Below are positions 8,424 through 63,439 of a stretch of DNA of 64,000 nt, one piece after another. A model generated the notes under the pieces. The model made no database searches and was not told the origin of the DNA. It worked only from the letters and a program-made list of their open reading frames with translations. Each line of letters starts with the position of its first letter. The stretch's first letter is position 1. The position numbers and the translations under genes were made by a program. The DNA is taken from NCBI GenBank assembly GCA_958299035.1, contig CATQJL010000223.1, positions 16,153,742 to 16,217,741 of the forward strand, in the 5' to 3' direction. Origin of the DNA: Cylicocyclus nassatus (Eukaryota; Nematoda; Chromadorea; Rhabditida; Strongylidae).

Positions 8424-9302
8424 TGTGTGGCGGCTCGGTGTGATCAGCACCTTTCCGCAAGTGCTCGCCGCAGCTACACCTAACTCCCTATTGTCCCCTA
8501 CGATGTCGCGCGTCCGTTAAGGTTCGCGACGCCTTAACGGTCGCTGCCGAGGACTACCCCCCTACAAGTACGAACGGCACAATAGATAGCGCGTAACGCT
8601 GAGAAAGAAAAGGACCGACTAATTCAAGTTACATTTATCTACAAATATACACAACAATAAACTAACGCTACTAAAACTACTAGAACTACGAAAACTACTA
8701 AAACTACTAAATCTACTAAAACTACTCTCTAAAATCAGGAAGAGATAGGCACGGGACGAGCCGCCTTGTCCCGTGCTGCCGATGCTCGGTGATGATCACT
8801 CCGACGCGTAGTTCCGGGCTCTCCGCTGGGTCAACCGCAAGCCCCTAGCCCTTCCGGGACGGTATGACCCCTCTCCACTCACGCTAGTGTGCTTCCTACG
8901 CAAGACAAACCATGCTGTTAGCTGCGCGTCTCCAAAACCAAGACGATGACAAAAGCTCAACCGCTCGAAACCGATGATTATCTGCGGGAGCTGCTGGAGG
9001 CGCTACCAGCACGAACGATCTCATAAAACGATCAATACGAACGAAACTCGAAGAGGCGTAGACCGCGGCGTGCGCGCCCTTATATACCCTGTGACTTGGC
9101 AACGCGCCAGCAGGAGAGGTCTTGGCGCGAAATGGCCAGCGCGCCAAGTAACGCGATAGCCAGCGCTCCCGGCCTCCTGTTTCGAGGAGTGGCTTGCATC
9201 GCGAGCCGCGACACCGTGATTGCCAACGGCCGTGCACATACCCTCAGTACTTAGAGCCAAGTGGTTTGATAACCCTGACTTTGAGGGTCATGAGAGAACA
9301 CA
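8424..9302 (-). repeat. Putative solo LTR
   Basis: Read on the minus strand, the segment starts TGTGTTCTCTCATGACC, has a TATATAAG-type promoter near 9081-9088, is GC-rich in its R/U5-like part and ends GCCGCCACACA, so it has TG...CA ends. No gag or pol flanks it and I found no target duplication. The minus-strand frames at 8896-9260 are likely non-coding. An LTR is the best explanation, but it lacks a second copy here. Confidence 0.35.
8665..8728. repeat. 9-bp microsatellite, ACTAAAACT type
   Basis: Imperfect tandem copies of a nine-base unit (ACTAAAACT, with GAACTACGA variants) run for about seven units inside the putative LTR. Confidence 0.7.
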
Positions 9303-13925: not shown

Positions 13926-14095
13926 GGCATACCTCCGGAGCAGAAATGGCCGAGCCGAAGGGTTTCCCCAGCTGGGGATTGCCACTCGTGCTCCGGAGAC
14001 CTCCCATTTATGCTCCGGAGTCCTCCCATTTTGTGCTCCGGAGACCTCCCATTTGTGCGCCGGACCCCTCCGATTTTCTGCTCCGCAAGTCTGCC
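13926..14095 (-). repeat. CCGGAG minisatellite fragment
   Basis: Four or more units of the CTCCGGAG...CCTCCCATTT type, the inverse of the array at 18480-18972, follow the tRNA-like head. The frames on both strands are repeat by-products. Confidence 0.6.
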
Positions 14096-18479: not shown

Positions 18480-18972
18480 CGCCGGAGAAAATGGGAGGGG
18501 TCCGGAGCAGAAATGGGAGGCCTCCGGAGCAGAAAATGGGAGGTATCCGGAGCAGAAAATGGGAGGTATCCGGAGCAGAAAATGGGAGGTCTCCGGAGCA
18601 GAAAATGGGAGGTATCCGGAGCAGAAAATGGGAGGTGTCCGGAGCAGAAAATGGGAGGTGTCCGGAGCAGAAAATGGGAGGTATCCGGAGCAGAAAATGG
18701 GAGGTATCCGGAGCAGAAAATGGGAGGTATCCGGAGCAGAAAATGGGAGGTGTCCGGAGCAGAAATGGGAGGTATCCGGAGCAGAAAATGGGAGGTGTCC
18801 GGAGCAGAAATGGGAGGTGTCCGGAGCAGAAAATGGGAGGTATCCGGAGCAGAAAATGGGAGGTATCCGGAGCAGAAAATGGGAGGTATCCGGAGCAGAA
18901 AATGGGAGGTATCCGGAGCAGAAATGGGAGGTCTCCGCCGGAGAAATGGGAGGGCTCCGCCGGACAAATGGG
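18480..18972. repeat. 23-bp minisatellite, 19 units plus degenerate edges
   Basis: Nineteen units of the form GGAGGTATCCGGAGCAGAAAATG are present, some 22 bp long because they have one A less, flanked by CCGCCGGAGAAATGGGAGG variants. As 23 is not a multiple of three, three units make a 69-nt period, so several frames on both strands stay open for 200-300 codons. These frames are composition artefacts with no start-context, splice or homology support. Related words occur at 13.9-14.1, 15.9 and 16.1-16.3 kb. Confidence 0.9.
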
Positions 18973-25336: not shown

Positions 25337-25604
25337 CAGGAGCTTGGTAAACGATTTGATGATTCTGTAGTAATCTTCAGGTTGAAGAAACTTCAGAGAT
25401 ACAATACCTATTCATTATAAAGAGCAAGGTAATGTAACCCAAAGATAGTACTTTCAATGCAAGACTTGGAACCGCATGCAAAATCTCTTTTCTGAAAACA
25501 CATGATGAATCGTAGTTTACATCTCGTTAAATTCGCTTCTATACTGGGACAAACTCACTTCAGGAATTATTTGCCGCTGGATCTAGAATCTGGATCTAGC
25601 AGCT
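25337..25604. other. Spacer, no gene seen
   Basis: AT-rich sequence with a short local repeat CTGGATCTAGAATCTGGATCTAG at its end (written here only by its repeated word CTGGATCTAG). Confidence 0.35.
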
Positions 25605-25835
25605 GTACCGATGGTTGTCCTCAAAAGAGGCAAAAGATGGTTGTACCGATGGTTGTCTTCAACAGAGGCAAAAGATGGTTGTACCGATGGTTGTTGTCAA
25701 CAGAGGCAACCGATGGCTGTACCGATGGTTATCCTCAAAAGAGGCAAAAGATGGTTGTACCGATGGTTGTCCTCAACAGAGGCAACCGATGGTTGTACCG
25801 ATGGTTGTTCTCAACAGAGGCAGCCGATGCCGATA
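25605..25835. repeat. 38-bp minisatellite, six units
   Basis: Units begin GTACCGATGGTTGT at 25605, 25643, 25681, 25719, 25757 and 25795 and vary at a few positions (CCTCAAAAGAGG or CTCAACAGAGG). The 38-bp period keeps all three plus-strand frames open for about 70-130 codons, an artefact of the repeat. It lies just past the 3' end of the Helitron helicase relic and may be part of that element's tail. Confidence 0.9.
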
Positions 25836-26079: not shown

Positions 26080-27944
26080 AATAGAATGGCATGCAACAAA
26101 TAAATACTGTACTATACGTTTCCAGGTCTATACCTACTGTTCGCAGAGACTGTCCTTGCGCTTTGTTGATCGTCATAGCAAGTGCAGGCCTGACCGGAAA
26201 CTGCACTCGCCTGAAGTCAAAGGGCATATCGGAGGGGACCAAAGGGACTCGTGGAATATGAACGACTTCGCCTTTGAACTCCCCCCCCCCCAATATGGTC
26301 GCTGCTATGACGTTTGGCATGAGATCCCTGATGCAAAGCCTTGTACCATTGACATCTTCGGTGGGTTGATGTTACGAAGGAGCATGATTGGCAAACCAGC
26401 CTTCAGATCAAGTCTGTGAAGTGGTATCCCATTGGGCTCGAATGAATTCAAGAACTCAGTGGGGAAGTAAACAGCCTGTTCACGCTAAACCATGGTATCA
26501 ACGGATGTGTACTTTGACACCGGTCCAGGTAGGCTGTTTAGAATCTGAGCATTGACAGAATTTACTTGCCCATTTTTGGGTGCCAGATTGCTCGCTCGCA
26601 AATCCAGTCCCCATTGCTGAAGTTGGCGGCAATGTTTGGGAAGACCTTTTCGATCAGTTTTCCCACCGATTGAACCATATTGCAGAAGTTTGGATTAAAG
26701 GTAATCCGGCCAGAACTTGGTTCAACCGGAATTCTGCCTTCGCCAAGAAGCAAGAGTTGTTGCGCAAAGCTTCGGGCAGTCTCATCGCCAAAGAGGTGGA
26801 CTCGCATGTTCGTCGTGAGATTCAGCGATCGAACATGTTTCCAGAGATGAGAAGTTTTGAGGCAAGCGTTCAGCTCATCTGGTGGAGTCGATCGCGGAAT
26901 CACTGGCAGAGATTGACGAAAGTCGCCTGCCAGTAGCACGACGGCCCCACCCATTAGCCTGCTGCTTCCTCGTATGTCCCGTAATGTGTTGTCAAGGGCT
27001 TCTAGGCACTTCTTATGCGCCATGGTGCACTCGTCCCAAACTATGAGTTTGGTTTCTTGTAGGACCTTGGCTTTCCCTGTGCCTTTGCTTATCCCATACA
27101 CTGTGTTCTCTACATGAGCAATATCCAGAGGAAGCTTGAAGGCTGAATGAGCAGTTCGGTCTCTTCTAGCAGTGTTGAGGCAATCCCCGAGGATGCCACT
27201 GCTAGTGCGATTCCTCCTTGCCTGCGAATCTCTGCAAGTAGGAAATTGATGAGAAACCTTTTCCCTGTTCCACCCGGAGCGTCGAGAAAGAGTAGCCCAC
27301 CATTGTCCAGAACAGCACGGTAAACCAACTCTTGATCCTCCGTAAGAAGAGGTCTGTTGGACTCTACAAATGTGGTCAGCTGATCGGCATCATAGGACCT
27401 TTCTCGGAGAACATCGCTCTCGAGTGCCTGGTCATTTCCGCGTATTGGTGACGGCAAACCGAGGTCTCTGAGGGTTTGACCGGTCATCGACACGCACGTA
27501 TCCTCATGCAGTACCAACGCTCGGTTGAATATTTGGGAAAAGTAACCGACGTCTGCAGAGGGTGCCACTCTGCGACATTGTCTGAGTACGTCTTCACTCA
27601 GAGCTTCTTTGTACTTCTCCCAGAGTGCTCGAGGATTTGACGGTTGACAGGCTGTCAAGATGATGCCGAAGAGACTTCGCAGTTGAGCAGCGAAACTTGT
27701 CGTAGCTGCTTCTGCGACTGTCCCATTGCTGATCATCTTCAAAGTAGACAGGAATCTCTCATCAACTACGTCTTCACTCAGAGCTTCTTTGTACTTCTCC
27801 CAGAGTGCTCGAGGATTTGACGGTTGACAGGCTGTCAAGATGATGCCGAAGAGACTTCGCAGTTGAGCAGCGAAACTTGTCGTAGCTGCTTCTGCGACTG
27901 TCCCATTGCTGATCATCTTCAAATTAGACAGGAATCTCTCATCA
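26080..27944 (-). pseudogene. Helitron-type PIF1-like DNA helicase, frameshifted
   Basis: The minus strand encodes, in order, a SEDVLRQCRRVAP region, the Walker A motif LDAPGGTGK (near 27285), Walker B VWDEC with TMAHK, the LLAGDFRQSLPVIP block (near 26930), and the C-terminal INKAQGQSL motif VI (near 26160). This is the order of PIF1/RecD-like helicases of eukaryotic Helitrons, which unwind DNA in rolling-circle transposition. Two reading-frame breaks (near 27105 and between 26560 and 26320) split it into three pieces. In Walker A the residue after GK is R where S or T is usual. The Rep endonuclease domain is absent. It ends abruptly in the 180-bp duplication and the cDNA adapter. Confidence 0.8.
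27587..27944. repeat. 180-bp tandem duplication, two copies, one difference
   Basis: 27587-27766 is repeated at 27767-27944; the only difference I see is G at 27744 against T at 27924. The unit keeps the helicase frame and repeats about 60 codons, although such helicases have this segment once. The second copy runs straight into the SMART oligonucleotide. Confidence 0.9.
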
Positions 27945-27969
27945 AAGCAGTGGTATCAACGCAGAGTAC
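27945..27969 (+). other. SMART cDNA-synthesis oligonucleotide (artificial sequence)
   Basis: Twenty-five consecutive bases, beginning AAGCAGTGGTATCAACGCAG and ending AGTAC, equal the common part of the SMART template-switch and cDNA-amplification primers. A 25-base exact match by chance in 64 kb is not credible. It lies exactly between two unrelated transposon fragments, so the join was most likely made in a cDNA or amplified library and entered the assembly. It is not a natural feature. Confidence 0.93.
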
Positions 27970-30170
27970 TCAGTGACTTCATCACCCACTGCAAGGCCGC
28001 GAGCAGCTTCGGCGAAATTGTGTCGCCTTGTCGGACTCCCCAATTAAATGGTCAGGGGGCGATGGGACAGCTGCATCGTCGTTATATAGTCCTTGTAGCA
28101 GTTGGCTAATGTCCTCACGTAAGCTGGGTCCACTCCATGATCGACTAGCGCAGACAGGATGGCGTTGGTTTCGACGCTGTCAAAGGCTTTCTCGTAGTCG
28201 ACAAAGGACTAGAGGCAGTCGGTATTCCCGGCAGACTTCTATAACCCTCTGGATGTGGTCCATGCAGCTGAATCCTTTGCGAAATCCAGCTTGTTCTTGG
28301 GGTTGGGCTTCATCCAGTGGCGAACGAGGATAAACTTCGTGAAAAGCTTGTACAGCACACTCAACAGACATATTGGACGGTAGTTCCGAAGATTTTCCCG
28401 TTTACCCTTTTTGAAAAGGAAGACGGTTCTTGATGTTCTCCACTGGTCGGGAATCCTTTCCTTTTGAAGGTGAGATGTTAGGTGCGACGCCAAAACCTCG
28501 TGTAGACATTATCCTCCGGCTCGCAAAAATTCGACGGAAAGATGGTCTGGTCCTGAAGCCGTGGAGGTCTTCAGGGTCTGAATCGCCATGCGCACTTCAG
28601 CAGGTAGAACTCGTGGTGATACTTCTCCACACGTTGATGAGTGGAAGAGGTTGGTGTAGAAGTTCTTTGCAATAGATTCCATCTTGTATCGGGAAGAAGT
28701 CGGAGTCTTGTCTCCGTTCAATAGTGCAGCCAGCGGTACGTGATATTCACAGAGGTCCAACTGGAACTTCTTGAGACTTCGTCTTCGTTCGGCTGCTTCC
28801 AGTATCTTGGCTTGCCTATACTTCCTAAGATCCTCCTGCAAAGCTGTTCTGCAACTGGCGTTGGCTATCAGTCGCTCGAGATGGGTTGCATTCGGATCCT
28901 GCCTCAGAAACCTTCTTCTTTCTAGCATTTCTTTGGTGATCTTCGAAACGCGTTCCAACTTCTTTTCAGAAATCACTGAGGCGCACTCTCCGCAGGCTCG
29001 CAATCCTTTCAGAAGCCGGTCGTAGTCGTACGTTGGGTCCTCCTCGATGGGCCAATTACAACTTGATATGAGCTCTTCCAGCCTGTTACCGTCATAAACA
29101 ACATTATTCCCTCTTGCGGCACTGTGGCAGACCTTCTTTTCCAGCCTTTGACTGAATCGTACCTTCGCTCGAAGGAGGCGGTGATCGGAGTCATTGCAGA
29201 AGGATGGAACTACTGAGACATCGAGCAAGGTCCACCTTCGGTTGGTGAGAATGTGGCGATCTCCGCGTAATCGTTCCGTTGGGCGATTCCCGTGCCCACC
29301 GGCGATGTTCTTTCTTCATGAAGATGGAATTTCCATGGAAAAGCCGTGCGGCGAGAGAAGCCCAACAAGAGGTTGCCGTTTTCGTTCCGGAGCCCATATC
29401 CAAATTTCCCGATCCTATATTCCTCTTCCAGTGGCATCCAGTCTTCGCGTTAAAGCCGCCCACAACGAACTTGTAGAAAGACTTCTCGTTGCGGACGACC
29501 TCCTCTACATCTTCGTAGAAAGCATCGCATCTAGTTTTGATTTTTCAGCTGCTGATGTGGAGAATAGCAGTTGATGATGCTGATGGTCTTCTGACGTGGA
29601 GGCGTATTCGTAGGATGCCTAGTCGAGGTGATAGGATCTCATACGAATCGACAAGATGGACGATAGATGGATGGACGACAAAACATACGCCTCCAAGGTT
29701 TCCTGATAGAACCTTTTCACCACGAATGATGAGAGTCCCATCACTCATCTGTCGCACGTCCTTCTTCCTGGACTTCGTTTCCTACAGAGCGATGATATGG
29801 TACTTGATGTGCTCTGCAGCGTCGAGAAGAGCGTGGAGGTCGGCGTTTGTGGAGGCTACTGTCCTGGAGTTGTAGGTGCAGAGCATGAGGCAGTCTCCAT
29901 GGCGTGTCGTCCGGGCAGACGTGTCGTTTTTGTTCGATCCAAAAGGTTCTTGCTACCACCCGACGCCATAGGCGGGATCCGATGTACAGGGTTTTTTCTA
30001 AATCTTCTTGCTGTCTGAGTAATAGGATTTGTTCCCCTACAAGAGCAGACTTACTAGGCCAACTCTTGATTTCCACGAGGCGATCGCTGACCCCGGGCTT
30101 GGAGCGGGAGAACCGCCTAGCGACCATAAAACCAGACGGCGGTGGATCTGGCCTAGCCGCTCTTAGCTAG
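27970..30170 (-). pseudogene. RTE-clade LINE: endonuclease/reverse transcriptase, frameshifted and truncated
   Basis: On the minus strand the reading starts with an APE-type endonuclease (TYNSRT and [20 protein letters not shown] near 29740-29880; GGFNAKTG near 29455; the DSDHRLLRAKVRF end near 29180). A linker follows, then the RT domain: [54 protein letters not shown] (motif A) and VRQGDTISPKLL (27990-28050). This is the RTE pattern common in nematodes. The catalytic YADD block and the 3' part are missing because the sequence stops at the SMART adapter. At least five frame changes break the ORF. It would have copied its RNA at nicked target DNA. Confidence 0.8.
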
Positions 30171-48576: not shown

Positions 48577-49591
48577 TGTTTATTGGAGTAAAAAATGGCA
48601 GCAAATTTTTGATGAAATCAGTGATTATGGTCTTTCTGGTGCCAAATAGAGAAGTATTGAGCACGAGTAGCACGAGTATATTAGACAAAAGGTTTTCTGC
48701 GTATAGAGTGCTATACCCGACGCTGGGTCATTTGCGCAATCTTGAACGAATTTGCATCAGTTGTACGTTCAACTTTTTGGGCCAAAACGCTTATAACTCA
48801 GCATCTAAATGCGCTTGGCAGATAACAAGGACAATTTTGGACTCCTGGTTGATGCTCTTCAGATTGGTATATAATCCATGTGGAAAGCCGATTTCGATTT
48901 CGGATCCTCCCCTTATGAGCTCACGCAATTGCAGCATGTTTTCCTAATATGTCGCTAATTTTCCTGTGTTTCAGCGTTCTGACCTATTTGATAGGCGACG
49001 TATCATAGTCGTTGATGACTCCAAAACGTTTCAAAGTTTCTAGTTCGGAAACATAAAGCAAGCTAATCGTGGATTGAGGTGAGAACTTACAGAAGCACAT
49101 GCACACTTTACCAAATGCCACACAGTTTATCAAAAACAAATCGAATCGAAAAGTACGAAAAACTGATAGCACTCAATAATTTTGCTATTGAGAAGGAGAG
49201 CAGATCTGACGTTGGCTTCAATGTGAAGTTTAATTTTCGATTGCGTTTTTATGTTCTGCGACACGGACTGTTCGGAAAGTTCATTAAATCAGACTGAGAG
49301 GTTTTGATAATTCGTTCGTTGGAATCTGTAAAGCTCAAAAACATTCTTCCATAATTTGAGCTCGAAAAGCAGAGCTTTGTGGAAAGCAAAAGTTGCAAAA
49401 ACGCAAGCCACGCCAGAGCTCACGTTCAAAAGTGGCTTGAGAGTGGTCATCATTTGCCTTTGCAATTTTGCGCATCAAAGTACTGATCGAAAGGAGAGAT
49501 CCGAAGTCATGTGGTCTACTACGAGTTTTCATGGTAAACCTAAGAAGTTCGCATAATGGCATAGCTACAAGTCGTTGTGAGACAATTTTTT
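48577..49591. other. Unannotated stretch, no gene seen
   Basis: A 48576-48947 plus-strand frame of 123 codons overlaps the hAT end and has no signature. Around 49340-49560 the sequence shows mirror-related open frames on both strands, as in other foldbacks, but no clear arms. Confidence 0.3.
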
Positions 49592-50898
49592 ATTAGGTCG
49601 TAAAATAGCTCCCTGGCACTTGCGAAAATTTTTTTTGAAATTGCTGTAACTTCAAGCAGATTGATTCTTTCTCAGAGCTACAAACTTCTTTGCAAAGACA
49701 ATCTCATAACAATCTCATTTCATTTTCATTTTTTACAACAAATGTTTGTCGTAAAAAGGTCGTAAAAAAAGCTATTAGGTTGTAAAAAAAGCTCCCTGGC
49801 ACTTGCGAAATTTTTTTTTTGAAATTGCTGTAACTTCAAGCAGATTGATCCTTTCTCAGAGCTACAAACTTCTTTGCAAAGACAATCTCATAACAATCTC
49901 ATTTCATTTTCATTTTTTACAACAAATGTTTGTCGTAAAAAGGTCGTAAAAAAAGCTATTAGATTGTAAAAAAAGCTCCCTGGCACTTGCGAAAATTTTT
50001 TTTGAAATTGCTGTAACTTCAAGCAGATTGATCCTTTCTCAGAGCTACAAACTCCTTTGCAAAGACAATCTCTTAACAATTTCATTTCAATTTCATTTTT
50101 TACAACAAATGTTTGTCTTATTAGCTTTCCAACTTCTCATTGCAGCCCACCAGCATGCGCAGAAGGGGAAAAGGTCTACGCGAAAAGTGGCCTATTTGTG
50201 CAGGATTATCTCAGGCATGATGAAAGCTGGAGAGCTCAAATGCTGTAGTTATATAAACGTCTGCTGGGCTGTTATGGGGACTATTTAAGCCTTTGAGCGA
50301 CCAATTGCAAAAATAAAGATTTTCCAAAAAGTTTGAAGAATCGACTATTTTTGCCCTCAAAAATGTGCCATTTTTCGAGCAAATGAATTTAAACTCTTCC
50401 GTTCTGCACATGGACGGACCAAATTTTGATTACTGCTAGCATTGTTAGAGCAATGCCTTACACATCTTTTAAACTCATTTAGAAGCGGCGATCCCAACAG
50501 AAGCGACGTCAGCTACAAAAAGAGTTGCCGTAAAGAGCAAGTTTGACAGCTTTTGATTTCTAAGCGCAAATCGCAAAACTTGAGTACAGCTGCGGGGTAG
50601 AAATCGACAGGCTCCTCAATCAGATCACCCAAGATTTGGACAAAATTTATTAAACTGCACAAAAAGAGCCGCAGAAAGAAAAATTGTGAAATTTTTATGG
50701 TTGGAAAAATTTCTTTTTTGATGTGCAGATCAAACAAGTCTTGTCATCGATAGAAATCAGAAGCGGTTTCAAAAAGTTCAATTACCCTCTATTGAAGAGT
50801 TTAAAAAACTTGGTGTAAATTCCGAACGAGCGCCGAAAAAAATGCGTTTGAAGGTGAAATTTCCAAAAGTACCCGGGAATTTTCTTTACAACCTAATA
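49592..50898. mobile_element. MITE-like element with a triplicated left end
   Basis: TTAGGTYGTAAA...CTCCCTGGCACTTGCG recurs at 49609, 49792 and 49976 as three tandem copies of about 184 bp, highly similar. The right end near 50870-50898 (GGGAATTTTCTTTACAACCTAA) is the inverse of one such end. It therefore looks like a TIR element whose left terminal segment was amplified in tandem. No transposase. Confidence 0.65.
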
Positions 50899-59164: not shown

Positions 59165-62100
59165 TCAGAGAATTTTCTGCCGTGGTTTCTTCCCTCGTTC
59201 TTTTCGAAGAGATTTGAGCAGCATGCGCAATATCCATCTCACTAGACAGACGCATAACTTGCACAAGCAATAGCCGAGTCGGAAAATGAGTCTGATCACT
59301 GTGCAAAATACCATGTTCGTGATGCAGGTGTATGTCATCAGCAATGCGAGCGCCATTAGTGCAATGTTGATCACTAGTGTAGCCTCAGTTGCGAAATACT
59401 TCGAATATATGTCCAAAGTCTGGAAGATTTATTTCCGAGAAGATTTCGTTTTCTCCTCTCAAGATGCGTCGCGTCGCTTCGTGTAGGTTTCCCGTGTAGT
59501 GTAGAATTCCTGCAATCTCAAAGGAGTTGACCGTTGTCCCACGTTTAATAGTACATTTTCTGTGGAACTGGGCGTTTTGACTTATGATGCTTATATTTGT
59601 TTGTGTACCTTCCTGTGAGCACAAAACCGTGAGTGCATCGTCGCCGCATTCTATTTCTGCCCGTGCTGCAGGTGTTGAGGAAATGCATGTGATTAGGGCT
59701 TTGGCTCCCTTTGTGCATTTATAGCACCCTGTGCAATGGGCAATTTTACTTGTGCATACCGCTTCTGATCGTATTGAAGTCGTGCTAAATTTCCCTTTAA
59801 TGCGTAGTAGGAATTCCGCTGTTGGTAGCTGTGGTATTTTTGAAGTTATCGTTCCGTTCATTTCCTGGAATTCAAGGTTGGGTCGCAAACAGGGTGTCCC
59901 AAAAGTCTTTGAGCCTAACTTCCCAACGTAGTAACTTTGTTAGTATTCCTCGCTTTTCAGTTAAATTTTGCGCACGAGTACTTCGTCTAGTTTTCAGTAT
60001 TTCTTAAGAAAATTATGCCGTTTGCGCGGTACATTCTCAAAATATTGTTTCTGGAGCAACAGTACTACAATTTTGAGACGGCCAAATGTTAACTTACCCT
60101 TTACTCAAACATATATACCTCTTTTGCCTTCGAAGCTCTTGCGGAATCTTGAACCGCATATTGTAAAGCTAGCCTTACTCTACGTCTACAGTGCAAAACT
60201 AATCAGTAGTCTGTATTCATTAATGCAGGATTAAGATACAAACACTCAAGTAGTGCCGTGTCAATAAGAAAAAAAAGTCCTCGGAAACAAAAAAATCCGA
60301 GGAAGCTGGAAACTCAAACACAAATTGAATTTGAGCCACTAATTCTAGCTGTAAGCTCTGCATTTTTTTTACTGGAATATCATTTTGAAGTCATTCCATG
60401 CACACCAAAATTGCTGTTTTTTTATGTTATCAAAAACTTGATTGCTGCAGACACATTTGTTAAATCTCACAGACGTGCTTCTCAGATCAACATGCTTTTA
60501 ATCGTCGGCCCAAGAGCATTTGACTTTCTTTGTAATCAGTCATGGAAAGCAAGGCGTGCTCTGTTCCACACTAAATTTTGGGCAGTCTGGAACGCTTGCT
60601 TCAGAAGATGTGAGACATTCTCGACGTCAACTATCTGTCTGCCACGGTGCATGCGTCGCGCAAGAGTGTGAGAGCTTGTGTGAAGGCCAAATAAGGGGTT
60701 TTCAAAAACTGAGTGTACCTTGTTATTTTGTAGATTTTTCACAAGATTCCTGCTAAATTTCATGTGAGTATGTTGCTCCGTACAGTTGCAATTAAGGAAA
60801 TACTAGGCTTAAAGACTTTTGGGACACCCTGTAAGTAATCTCTACCGTGGTTCCCGAATATTTGATGTGAGGTTGCCCTCCTTGCAGTCGCAGCGCATTT
60901 TCGACTCTGCTGGTGTACAGGTGCATTCCTCTCTCCATCGCAGGTAAGGTTTCGTGCCTCTTCTTGTGAATTACATGTTAGAGGTGGCTGGTAGTCCGTT
61001 GGAGCCAGTGCGAAGAGTTCACGATCTGTGAGAAAGGCTGAGTTTAACAGAGGTGTTGGTGGAGTGCTGATCGATGAAAGAGTAATTACAAATATCGAAA
61101 GCATACTGGGTTGATTTGGAACAAGACGAACGTCGTGATGTTGTGTTGGCTTTCCTTCTTCGCTAATAGAGAGTTGTAGGTTTATACCCTGTTTCCATCT
61201 TCTACATCTGAAGATCTCATACACCTTCTCATCGTTTGGTATGAGGTAAATCCTGTAAAATTCTCATCAGCACCCGGAACTGGGGTAAAAGCAGTCACAA
61301 CCGGGTCCGCCGCAGCTTTCTACGCATCCGGTTACGCCGGGGTAGTAATTTGCTTTGTGCAGTTCTGGGATTTGAGATGTTCGCGTGATACTTCCATATT
61401 TATCTCCTACGCATGATCCTGCATGTGGGCATCGTTTGCTGTCCAATAGTGCATACGTGCTTTTAGTGAACAGTATCGTTTGTTTTTCGCAGATCAGATT
61501 GAGGCTCTTCCAAAGTAGTTTTACTTCTAGGATATTGTTGTTCTTGCCTTTCAATCTGATGCAGGCTTCTTGCTTGAAGGGGTTGATTTTGAGAATCTCC
61601 GTTGTGTCAATCGTGCAATAATGGCCTCGTTTTGAGCGATAGCAGGATCTGCTTTGGTGCGTAGAGACATCTACGTCTTGACACGCTTGCAGTATTGTGC
61701 TCATGCTTAGTGCCATGAATATTGCACTTCTAGAGAACGAAATCCTTCGACGTCTGTGATGGGCTGGTGCCAATATCTTTGCCATCGTGTTCCATACTGT
61801 TCTAACTGATAATCGCACACACAATACAACTATCTTCAAAAGGTACAGGAATGGAGCTCCAATCAATACTGACACATGAAATACGCAGTAACATATGGAA
61901 ATTGCTGCGTAAGCTGCAATTCCTGTTACAAGAATGGCTGTTCGTGGCCAACATTCCGGGTTGGTCATCATTGCCGTGCAGAAGGTGCAGTCCACTTCAC
62001 TAAGTGCTCGTGCAGCGTGATTTGTGCGAGTAATATTACCGTTTCTATTCGCTGCGGTTGGCGAAATTCGATGCAGTAGTCCTCCGCGCAAATCTCATAT

Positions 62101-62340: not shown

Positions 62341-63439
62341 TGCGGGGCGGATGTTTCTCTTCGTGGGCTGGATGTTTCTTCTTGATCCTGTCCAAGCTCC
62401 AGTGGTACCATGCGATTGATGGGGCGTCTGAGCTTATGTTTGTTAGGTGTTTCTAGCACAACTTCTCGTCCTGCCCCTGGTGCGTCTTAAAATTCAATTA
62501 TTCTTGCCATTTTCCATGTGTTTCTTGGTTGTACTGACTCCCACATGAGTACCACATCTCCTTCCTTCGGTTTTCTAGTTGTTCCTCTTTTTTCGTCGAT
62601 GTGTATTCTGTGAAATTCCCTCAGATTTGTAAGATACTGTGTGCTCCAAATCTTCCAGAATTTTTCCGTTAAATTGACTGATGACTTCAGTGCTTCCTCT
62701 GCCTGATGTTGTGTGGCCATTTGTTGTGCTTCTTCTGGAGTATGGTAGGTCCTATCCTTTCCGTTTCCTCCTATGTTTTGCAAGGGAAAGTGCAGTATGA
62801 TATCGTTTTGCAAGAAGTCTATGGGCCGGAGAATTGGTTGATCTTCCCACTCTTCTTGATATGTAAGCGGTCGTGAATTTAGCACTGCTTCGATTTCTGC
62901 TAATATCGTTCTTAGTGCATCAAATGTCACGATTCGTACTCCAAGTGTTTTGTGCAACGAGTCTTTGATGGAGCGAATTAGCCGTTCGTAAAAACCACCC
63001 TGCCACGGTGCGTACGTGTTATGTGCTTCCATCGAATTTCTCTTTGTGCAAGATCGCTTTGGAGATCCGTGCTGTTTTCCGCGTTGTTTATTGCATCGTG
63101 CAATATTTGCTCTCCCAGCAGAAAAGTAGGTGCGTTATCGCAGGTTATTGTTTCAGGTACTCCTCTTCGTGCGAAAAATCGTCGAAGAGCATTTACAAAT
63201 GCTTCTGTAGACATGTCCTCTACCAACTCCAAGTGTATGAGGCGTGTTGTCTGGCACGTGAGTATACATCCATAAGCCTTCGATCTTTTTTGTGCTTCTT
63301 CGTTTTCTTTTTGTTCTTTATTTTTCTTTTCTTCTTCGGTTCCATTTGATTCCATATTTTGTTTTCGTGCTTGGTGCATGTTTTTGATCATCAGTGGTCT
63401 CTGCGCATTTCTTATATAAAATCTAAGAAATACCATCAA
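62341..63439 (-). pseudogene. Bel/Pao integrase and pol C terminus, frameshifted
   Basis: The minus-strand reading contains CILTCQTTRLIHLELVEDMS, then RGVPETITCDNAPTF (second catalytic Asp), then, after a frame change near 63005, YAPWQGGFYERLIRSIKDSL (catalytic Glu) and a C-terminal LNSRPLTY...PIDFL block, ending in a pol tail with LRRPINRMVPLEL and YNLRPRKK just before the envelope. This is the Bel/Pao integrase layout, which would join element cDNA to chromosomal DNA. The first catalytic Asp lies in a region replaced by a Glu/Lys-rich stretch (63290-63360) of unclear origin. RT and RNase H would lie beyond the window or are lost. Confidence 0.8.

Follow-up and report, generated by a model that had tools for sequence, protein, structure and literature searches.

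A likely genomic amplification adapter at a probably artificial joint between a Helitron helicase and a LINE in a Cylicocyclus nassatus contig

Does the meeting of a Helitron helicase and a LINE in this stretch of Cylicocyclus nassatus DNA belong to the genome of the worm, or was it made artificially, and what kind of oligonucleotide lies at the joint? The window analysed here, a term used for the whole stretch of 64,000 nucleotides, was numbered from its first base. The features around the joint were as follows.

26562–27389, minus strand: remainder of the PIF1-like helicase in another frame, a decayed copy (PF05970, E 6.1e-39)
27110–27955, minus strand: Helitron helicase ORF, its upstream part doubled and then cut by the oligonucleotide, from whose bases its first residues are read (PF05970 (PIF1), E 7e-13; 85% identity to homologue P0001; related to the solved structure of Helraiser, E 2.5e-6)
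27587–27765: direct repeat copy 1, within the Helitron helicase (repeat search, self-comparison)
27767–27945: direct repeat copy 2, ending at the oligonucleotide, its last A being the first base of the oligonucleotide (repeat search, self-comparison)
27945–27969, plus strand: synthetic 25-mer, the SMART oligonucleotide, identical to bases 1–25 of the PCR adapter used in PacBio genomic amplification (exact match; adapter given in excerpts of PMC12613986)
27970, plus strand: T completing the 26-base adapter, which could be a native LINE base (serine codon; homologue P0157 has Ser there)
27971–28208, minus strand: LINE reverse transcriptase motifs in several frames, cut at the oligonucleotide before FADD (homologue P0157; Pfam RVT_1 E 0.043, below the cut-off)
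28509–29315, minus strand: LINE ORF between the endonuclease and reverse transcriptase parts (homologues P0121, P0122 and P0123; no Pfam match)

A match to the SMART/template-switch oligonucleotide had been claimed in the initial annotation, and it was borne out. The sequence AAGCAGTGGTATCAACGCAGAGTAC occurred once, exactly, on the plus strand at 27945–27969, was the sole match in the window at up to three mismatches, and was absent from all of 100 shuffled windows; the random expectation of an exact 25-mer in the window was about 1e-10. Base 27970 was a T, giving the 26-mer AAGCAGTGGTATCAACGCAGAGTACT at 27945–27970, and the bases after the oligonucleotide (TCAGTGACTT) were this T followed by LINE coding sequence. 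The T weighs little, being expected 1 in 4 times by chance, and it may be a native LINE base, because the homologue P0157 has a serine at the same place. Elsewhere in the window a search for adapter remnants of at least 10 bases returned just one match, of 11 bases, within the helicase region at 26493, as chance would roughly predict. The window contained no N bases.

Both transposon fragments had been said to end abruptly at the oligonucleotide; this held, the truncations lying inside coding sequence. On the left, the Helitron helicase shared 162 of 191 residues with P0001, which extends further upstream (YREACQRLGLLEDDQQWD); the window helicase ORF was without that part, the motif EDDQQWD being retained in another frame, just 24 bases from the oligonucleotide. 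On the right, the LINE reading GVRQGDTISPKL.AALQWVMKSLS matched P0157 at 22 of 25 positions, with the last serine coming from oligonucleotide bases, and P0157 continued SWEERG...FADD where the window LINE ran into the oligonucleotide. The ORF at 28509–29315 was 81% identical to an unnamed protein (P0121), 62% to a Necator protein (P0122) and 83%, over 66% of the query, to a Cylicocyclus nassatus protein (P0123). Among the LINE pieces submitted, none gave a firm Pfam match to a reverse transcriptase or endonuclease, and the one compared with solved structures matched none. The LINE was thus identified by its homologues, from strongylid nematodes, and not by Pfam; its placing in the RTE clade is the label of the initial annotation.

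A direct repeat with a period of 180 was found at the left edge of the joint, its two copies of 179 bases (27587–27765 and 27767–27945) differing at one position (27744/27924). This repeat is absent from the initial annotation and is a new observation. It is perhaps an overlap, duplicated instead of merged, that linked a chimeric piece to the Helitron contig, since two independent events would otherwise have to meet at the same base by coincidence; alternatively, it may be a native duplication. The ACT at the boundary of the two copies may be a remnant of a trimmed adapter.

Decayed and nested transposons are common in such genomes, and a native duplication could be the source of the direct repeat. 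On this view the repeat and the truncations would be real features of nested elements in decay, with the 25-mer either acquired DNA or matching by chance. This reading we hold to be extremely improbable: the chance expectation and the empty shuffles given above stand against it, and so does the loss of the 3′ part of the LINE, since LINEs normally lose their 5′ part and downstream loss is not usual for target-primed insertion. A Helitron–LINE fusion element would run as continuous native sequence across the joint, and here the synthetic 25-mer lay inside it.

GC content over 1 kb on each side of the joint was 0.501 and 0.497, and 18 interspersed repeat matches linked the left arm of the window with the right. 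Relatives pointed to strongylid nematodes. Because the repeats are common to both, the arms probably come from one genome or from close kin. A foreign origin of one side was considered and judged unlikely, as repeats cross the joint and GC is equal. To judge from these features, the joint is likely a chimera within one genome, for which composition is no test; the equal GC therefore gives no independent sign of a chimera.

Other features were seen in the arms. A tandem repeat left of the Helitron helicase (25602–25829) had 5.8 copies of a 38-bp unit and could also be read as a 114-bp unit. A tandem array at 18486–18953 had about 20.6 copies of a 23-bp unit (94% matches), with related copies at 13989–14085, and another at 49591–50117 had 2.9 copies of a 184-bp unit (96% matches). 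Near the right end, a minus-strand ORF at 61270–62094 encoded a phlebovirus G2-type fusion domain (PF07245, E 1.8e-43) close to a DUF5641 ORF (62490–63134, minus strand); together they resemble a fragment of a retroelement that carries an envelope-like gene.

By primer design, GGG would be expected next to the oligonucleotide at a template-switch end, and consecutive T bases at an oligo-dT end. Neither GGG nor a T-run was present beside the oligonucleotide in the window, so that it lacked the mark of a SMART cDNA end. It did resemble a scar of an ultra-low-input adapter, in that the exact AAGCAGTGGTATCAACGCAGAGTAC was followed by T and arbitrary genomic sequence adjoined its inner end; in place of the back-to-back pair that is common, though not obligatory, in such scars, the window had one forward copy. 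In excerpts of PMC12613986, the 26-mer is identified as an adapter that contaminated a PacBio HiFi genome and was removed with lima, and duplicates in that genome were marked with pbmarkdup. Searched as a text term, the oligonucleotide also matched other genome papers (e.g. PMC10553269, PMC5148876 and PMC4379747).

The same 25-mer was found in public collections. In IMG/VR it was present in 116 stretches with 118 occurrences, from at least 8 dataset numbers (among the 80 of 116 rows listed); T came next in 116 of the 118, and 114 of the 118 lay at a locus edge. In one viral contig stretch (L027), adapter copies stood head-to-tail near the end (9164–9214). GTDB r220 held 12 loci with the 25-mer (L117–L128), all 12 titled as Fram Strait MAGs, and T came next in 20 of 22 occurrences. 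Over both collections T followed the 25-mer in 136 of 140 occurrences, none ran into 8 T, one ran directly into GGG and seven had GGG within six bases. Ten of the 12 GTDB scars were back-to-back adapter pairs, L128 was a pair minus one base, and L127 was a single forward copy like that in the window; in 10 of the 12 the scar was over 390 bases away from either end of the sequence fetched, and in L124 and L126 it was at most 50 bases from one end. Ultra-low-input PacBio libraries are given for the Fram Strait series in excerpts of PMC8254474 (with long-range PCR in the protocol, and Illumina reads too) and for the Fram Strait sample series also in excerpts of PMC10504371 and PMC10710508; we infer that the WSC20 series belongs to PMC10710508.

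Base composition was compared across 13 internal loci (L022 and L117–L128), of which nine had 1 kb on both sides and were kept, L022, L119, L124 and L126 being dropped. The GC step had a median of 0.122 at the nine scars and of 0.017 at 141 control points, which overlapped and were taken from these loci. A step of at least 0.1 was seen at five of nine scars (L117, L120, L121, L123 and L127) and at one of 141 control points, indicating that these five Fram Strait contigs are probably chimeric. The remaining four (L118, L122, L125 and L128) had steps below 0.1, and dissimilar DNA is therefore not a feature of all scars.

The missing GGG and T-run, the report in PMC12613986 and the collection-wide pattern led us to read the oligonucleotide as likely an adapter of genomic DNA amplification rather than a cDNA primer. 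The claim of an artificial chimera in the initial annotation was thus supported at the level of sequence, by the exact oligonucleotide and both truncations, whereas its cDNA origin was not supported, with no GGG or T-run after the oligonucleotide. Were SMART cDNA or Iso-Seq reads nevertheless in the assembly, the flanks would be transcripts and the oligonucleotide a primer for cDNA or for template switching. Its identity with the SMART oligonucleotide agrees with this, and so does the PiMmS single-worm protocol, which amplifies cDNA beside genomic DNA of the same nematode (excerpts of PMC10682056); there TruSeq adapters were used on the genomic reads of a strongylid genome, and a cDNA library was made from that worm as well; because of this pairing we keep a cDNA source in view. 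We nonetheless consider it quite unlikely, as the inner end lacks both cDNA marks, both flanking elements show decay in the form of stops and frame changes, and the copies in GTDB and IMG/VR run into T and then mixed bases.

The joint is, on our reading of these sequences, likely artificial: two unlinked parts of one genome would have been fused via the PCR adapter of an amplified genomic (PacBio ultra-low-input) library. The adapter would have been ligated to the end of a LINE fragment at 27971, or its PCR primer would have extended from there. The 5′ end of the adapter would then have been joined to Helitron DNA in one of three ways: as a PCR chimera, where a completed strand used its 3′ end as a primer on Helitron DNA; through ligation between library molecules; or because contigs were joined wrongly. 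Lying inside a read or contig, the adapter would have escaped trimming. With less certainty, the direct repeat may be the overlap that attached the chimeric piece to the Helitron contig.

Some observations speak against a chimera from an amplified library. A single forward adapter is in the minority among internal scars (1 of 12 in the comparison set). Chimeric alignments made up at most 0.81% for the libraries reported in excerpts of PMC11809032, ultra-low-input PCR giving no more of them than unamplified libraries. Three strongylid genomes were made with other chemistry (excerpts of PMC10682056, PMC12193031 and PMC11801625), among them one with REPLI-g amplification (PMC12193031) and one with REPLI-g and pooled unamplified DNA (PMC11801625).

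In a variant compatible with the amplified-library explanation, the adapter was left at a contig end and the contigs were abutted by scaffolding or gap-filling, with no chimeric molecule. The frequent position of the 25-mer at locus edges in IMG/VR (114 of 118), the likeness of the direct repeat to an unmerged overlap and the lack of N in the window are consistent with such a join. Against it, the 5′ side of the oligonucleotide is directly adjoined by Helitron sequence (copy 2 of the repeat), although no sequence should precede an adapter that ends a contig; we regard this variant as possible but rather doubtful.

How much of the window is affected? The initial annotation had placed 25.6–30.3 kb under suspicion. 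That range was at once too wide, with just the breakpoint and the adjacent direct repeat suspect, and too narrow, as the whole arms are unlinked. One breakpoint, at 27945–27970, is suspect and unlinks 1–27944 (28 kb) from 27971–64000 (36 kb); apart from the direct repeat, no sign against the order within either arm was found in the window sequence. A gene model, synteny call or Helitron–LINE fusion called across 27945–27970 would likely be wrong. In other deposited assemblies, a search for this short sequence yielded candidate chimera breakpoints, namely 12 loci in public prokaryote genomes, and some of these oligonucleotide-marked loci join DNA of very different base composition. We lean slightly towards a general use of the 26-mer: in assemblies built from PCR-amplified DNA of single specimens it would flag false joints, internal copies would be exact chimera breakpoints, some beside a duplicated overlap, and such scars would occur widely in deposited genomes of eukaryotes and prokaryotes, reference MAGs among them.

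The flanks of the joint resembled known elements, being fragments of a Helitron (Helraiser-type) helicase and of a strongylid LINE; their adjacency is likely not a fusion, unlike that in a fusion transposon. The 25 bases between them are identical to the cDNA primer and template-switch oligonucleotide of SMART, Smart-seq and Iso-Seq, but differ from the ends made by those methods in having neither GGG nor poly-T at the inner end. The same 25-mer lies in genomic sequence in the reads of Lecanora helva (excerpts of PMC12613986) and in the Fram Strait loci L117–L128. Most of the Fram Strait scars are back-to-back pairs, whereas the window carries one forward adapter, as L127 does, together with a direct repeat.
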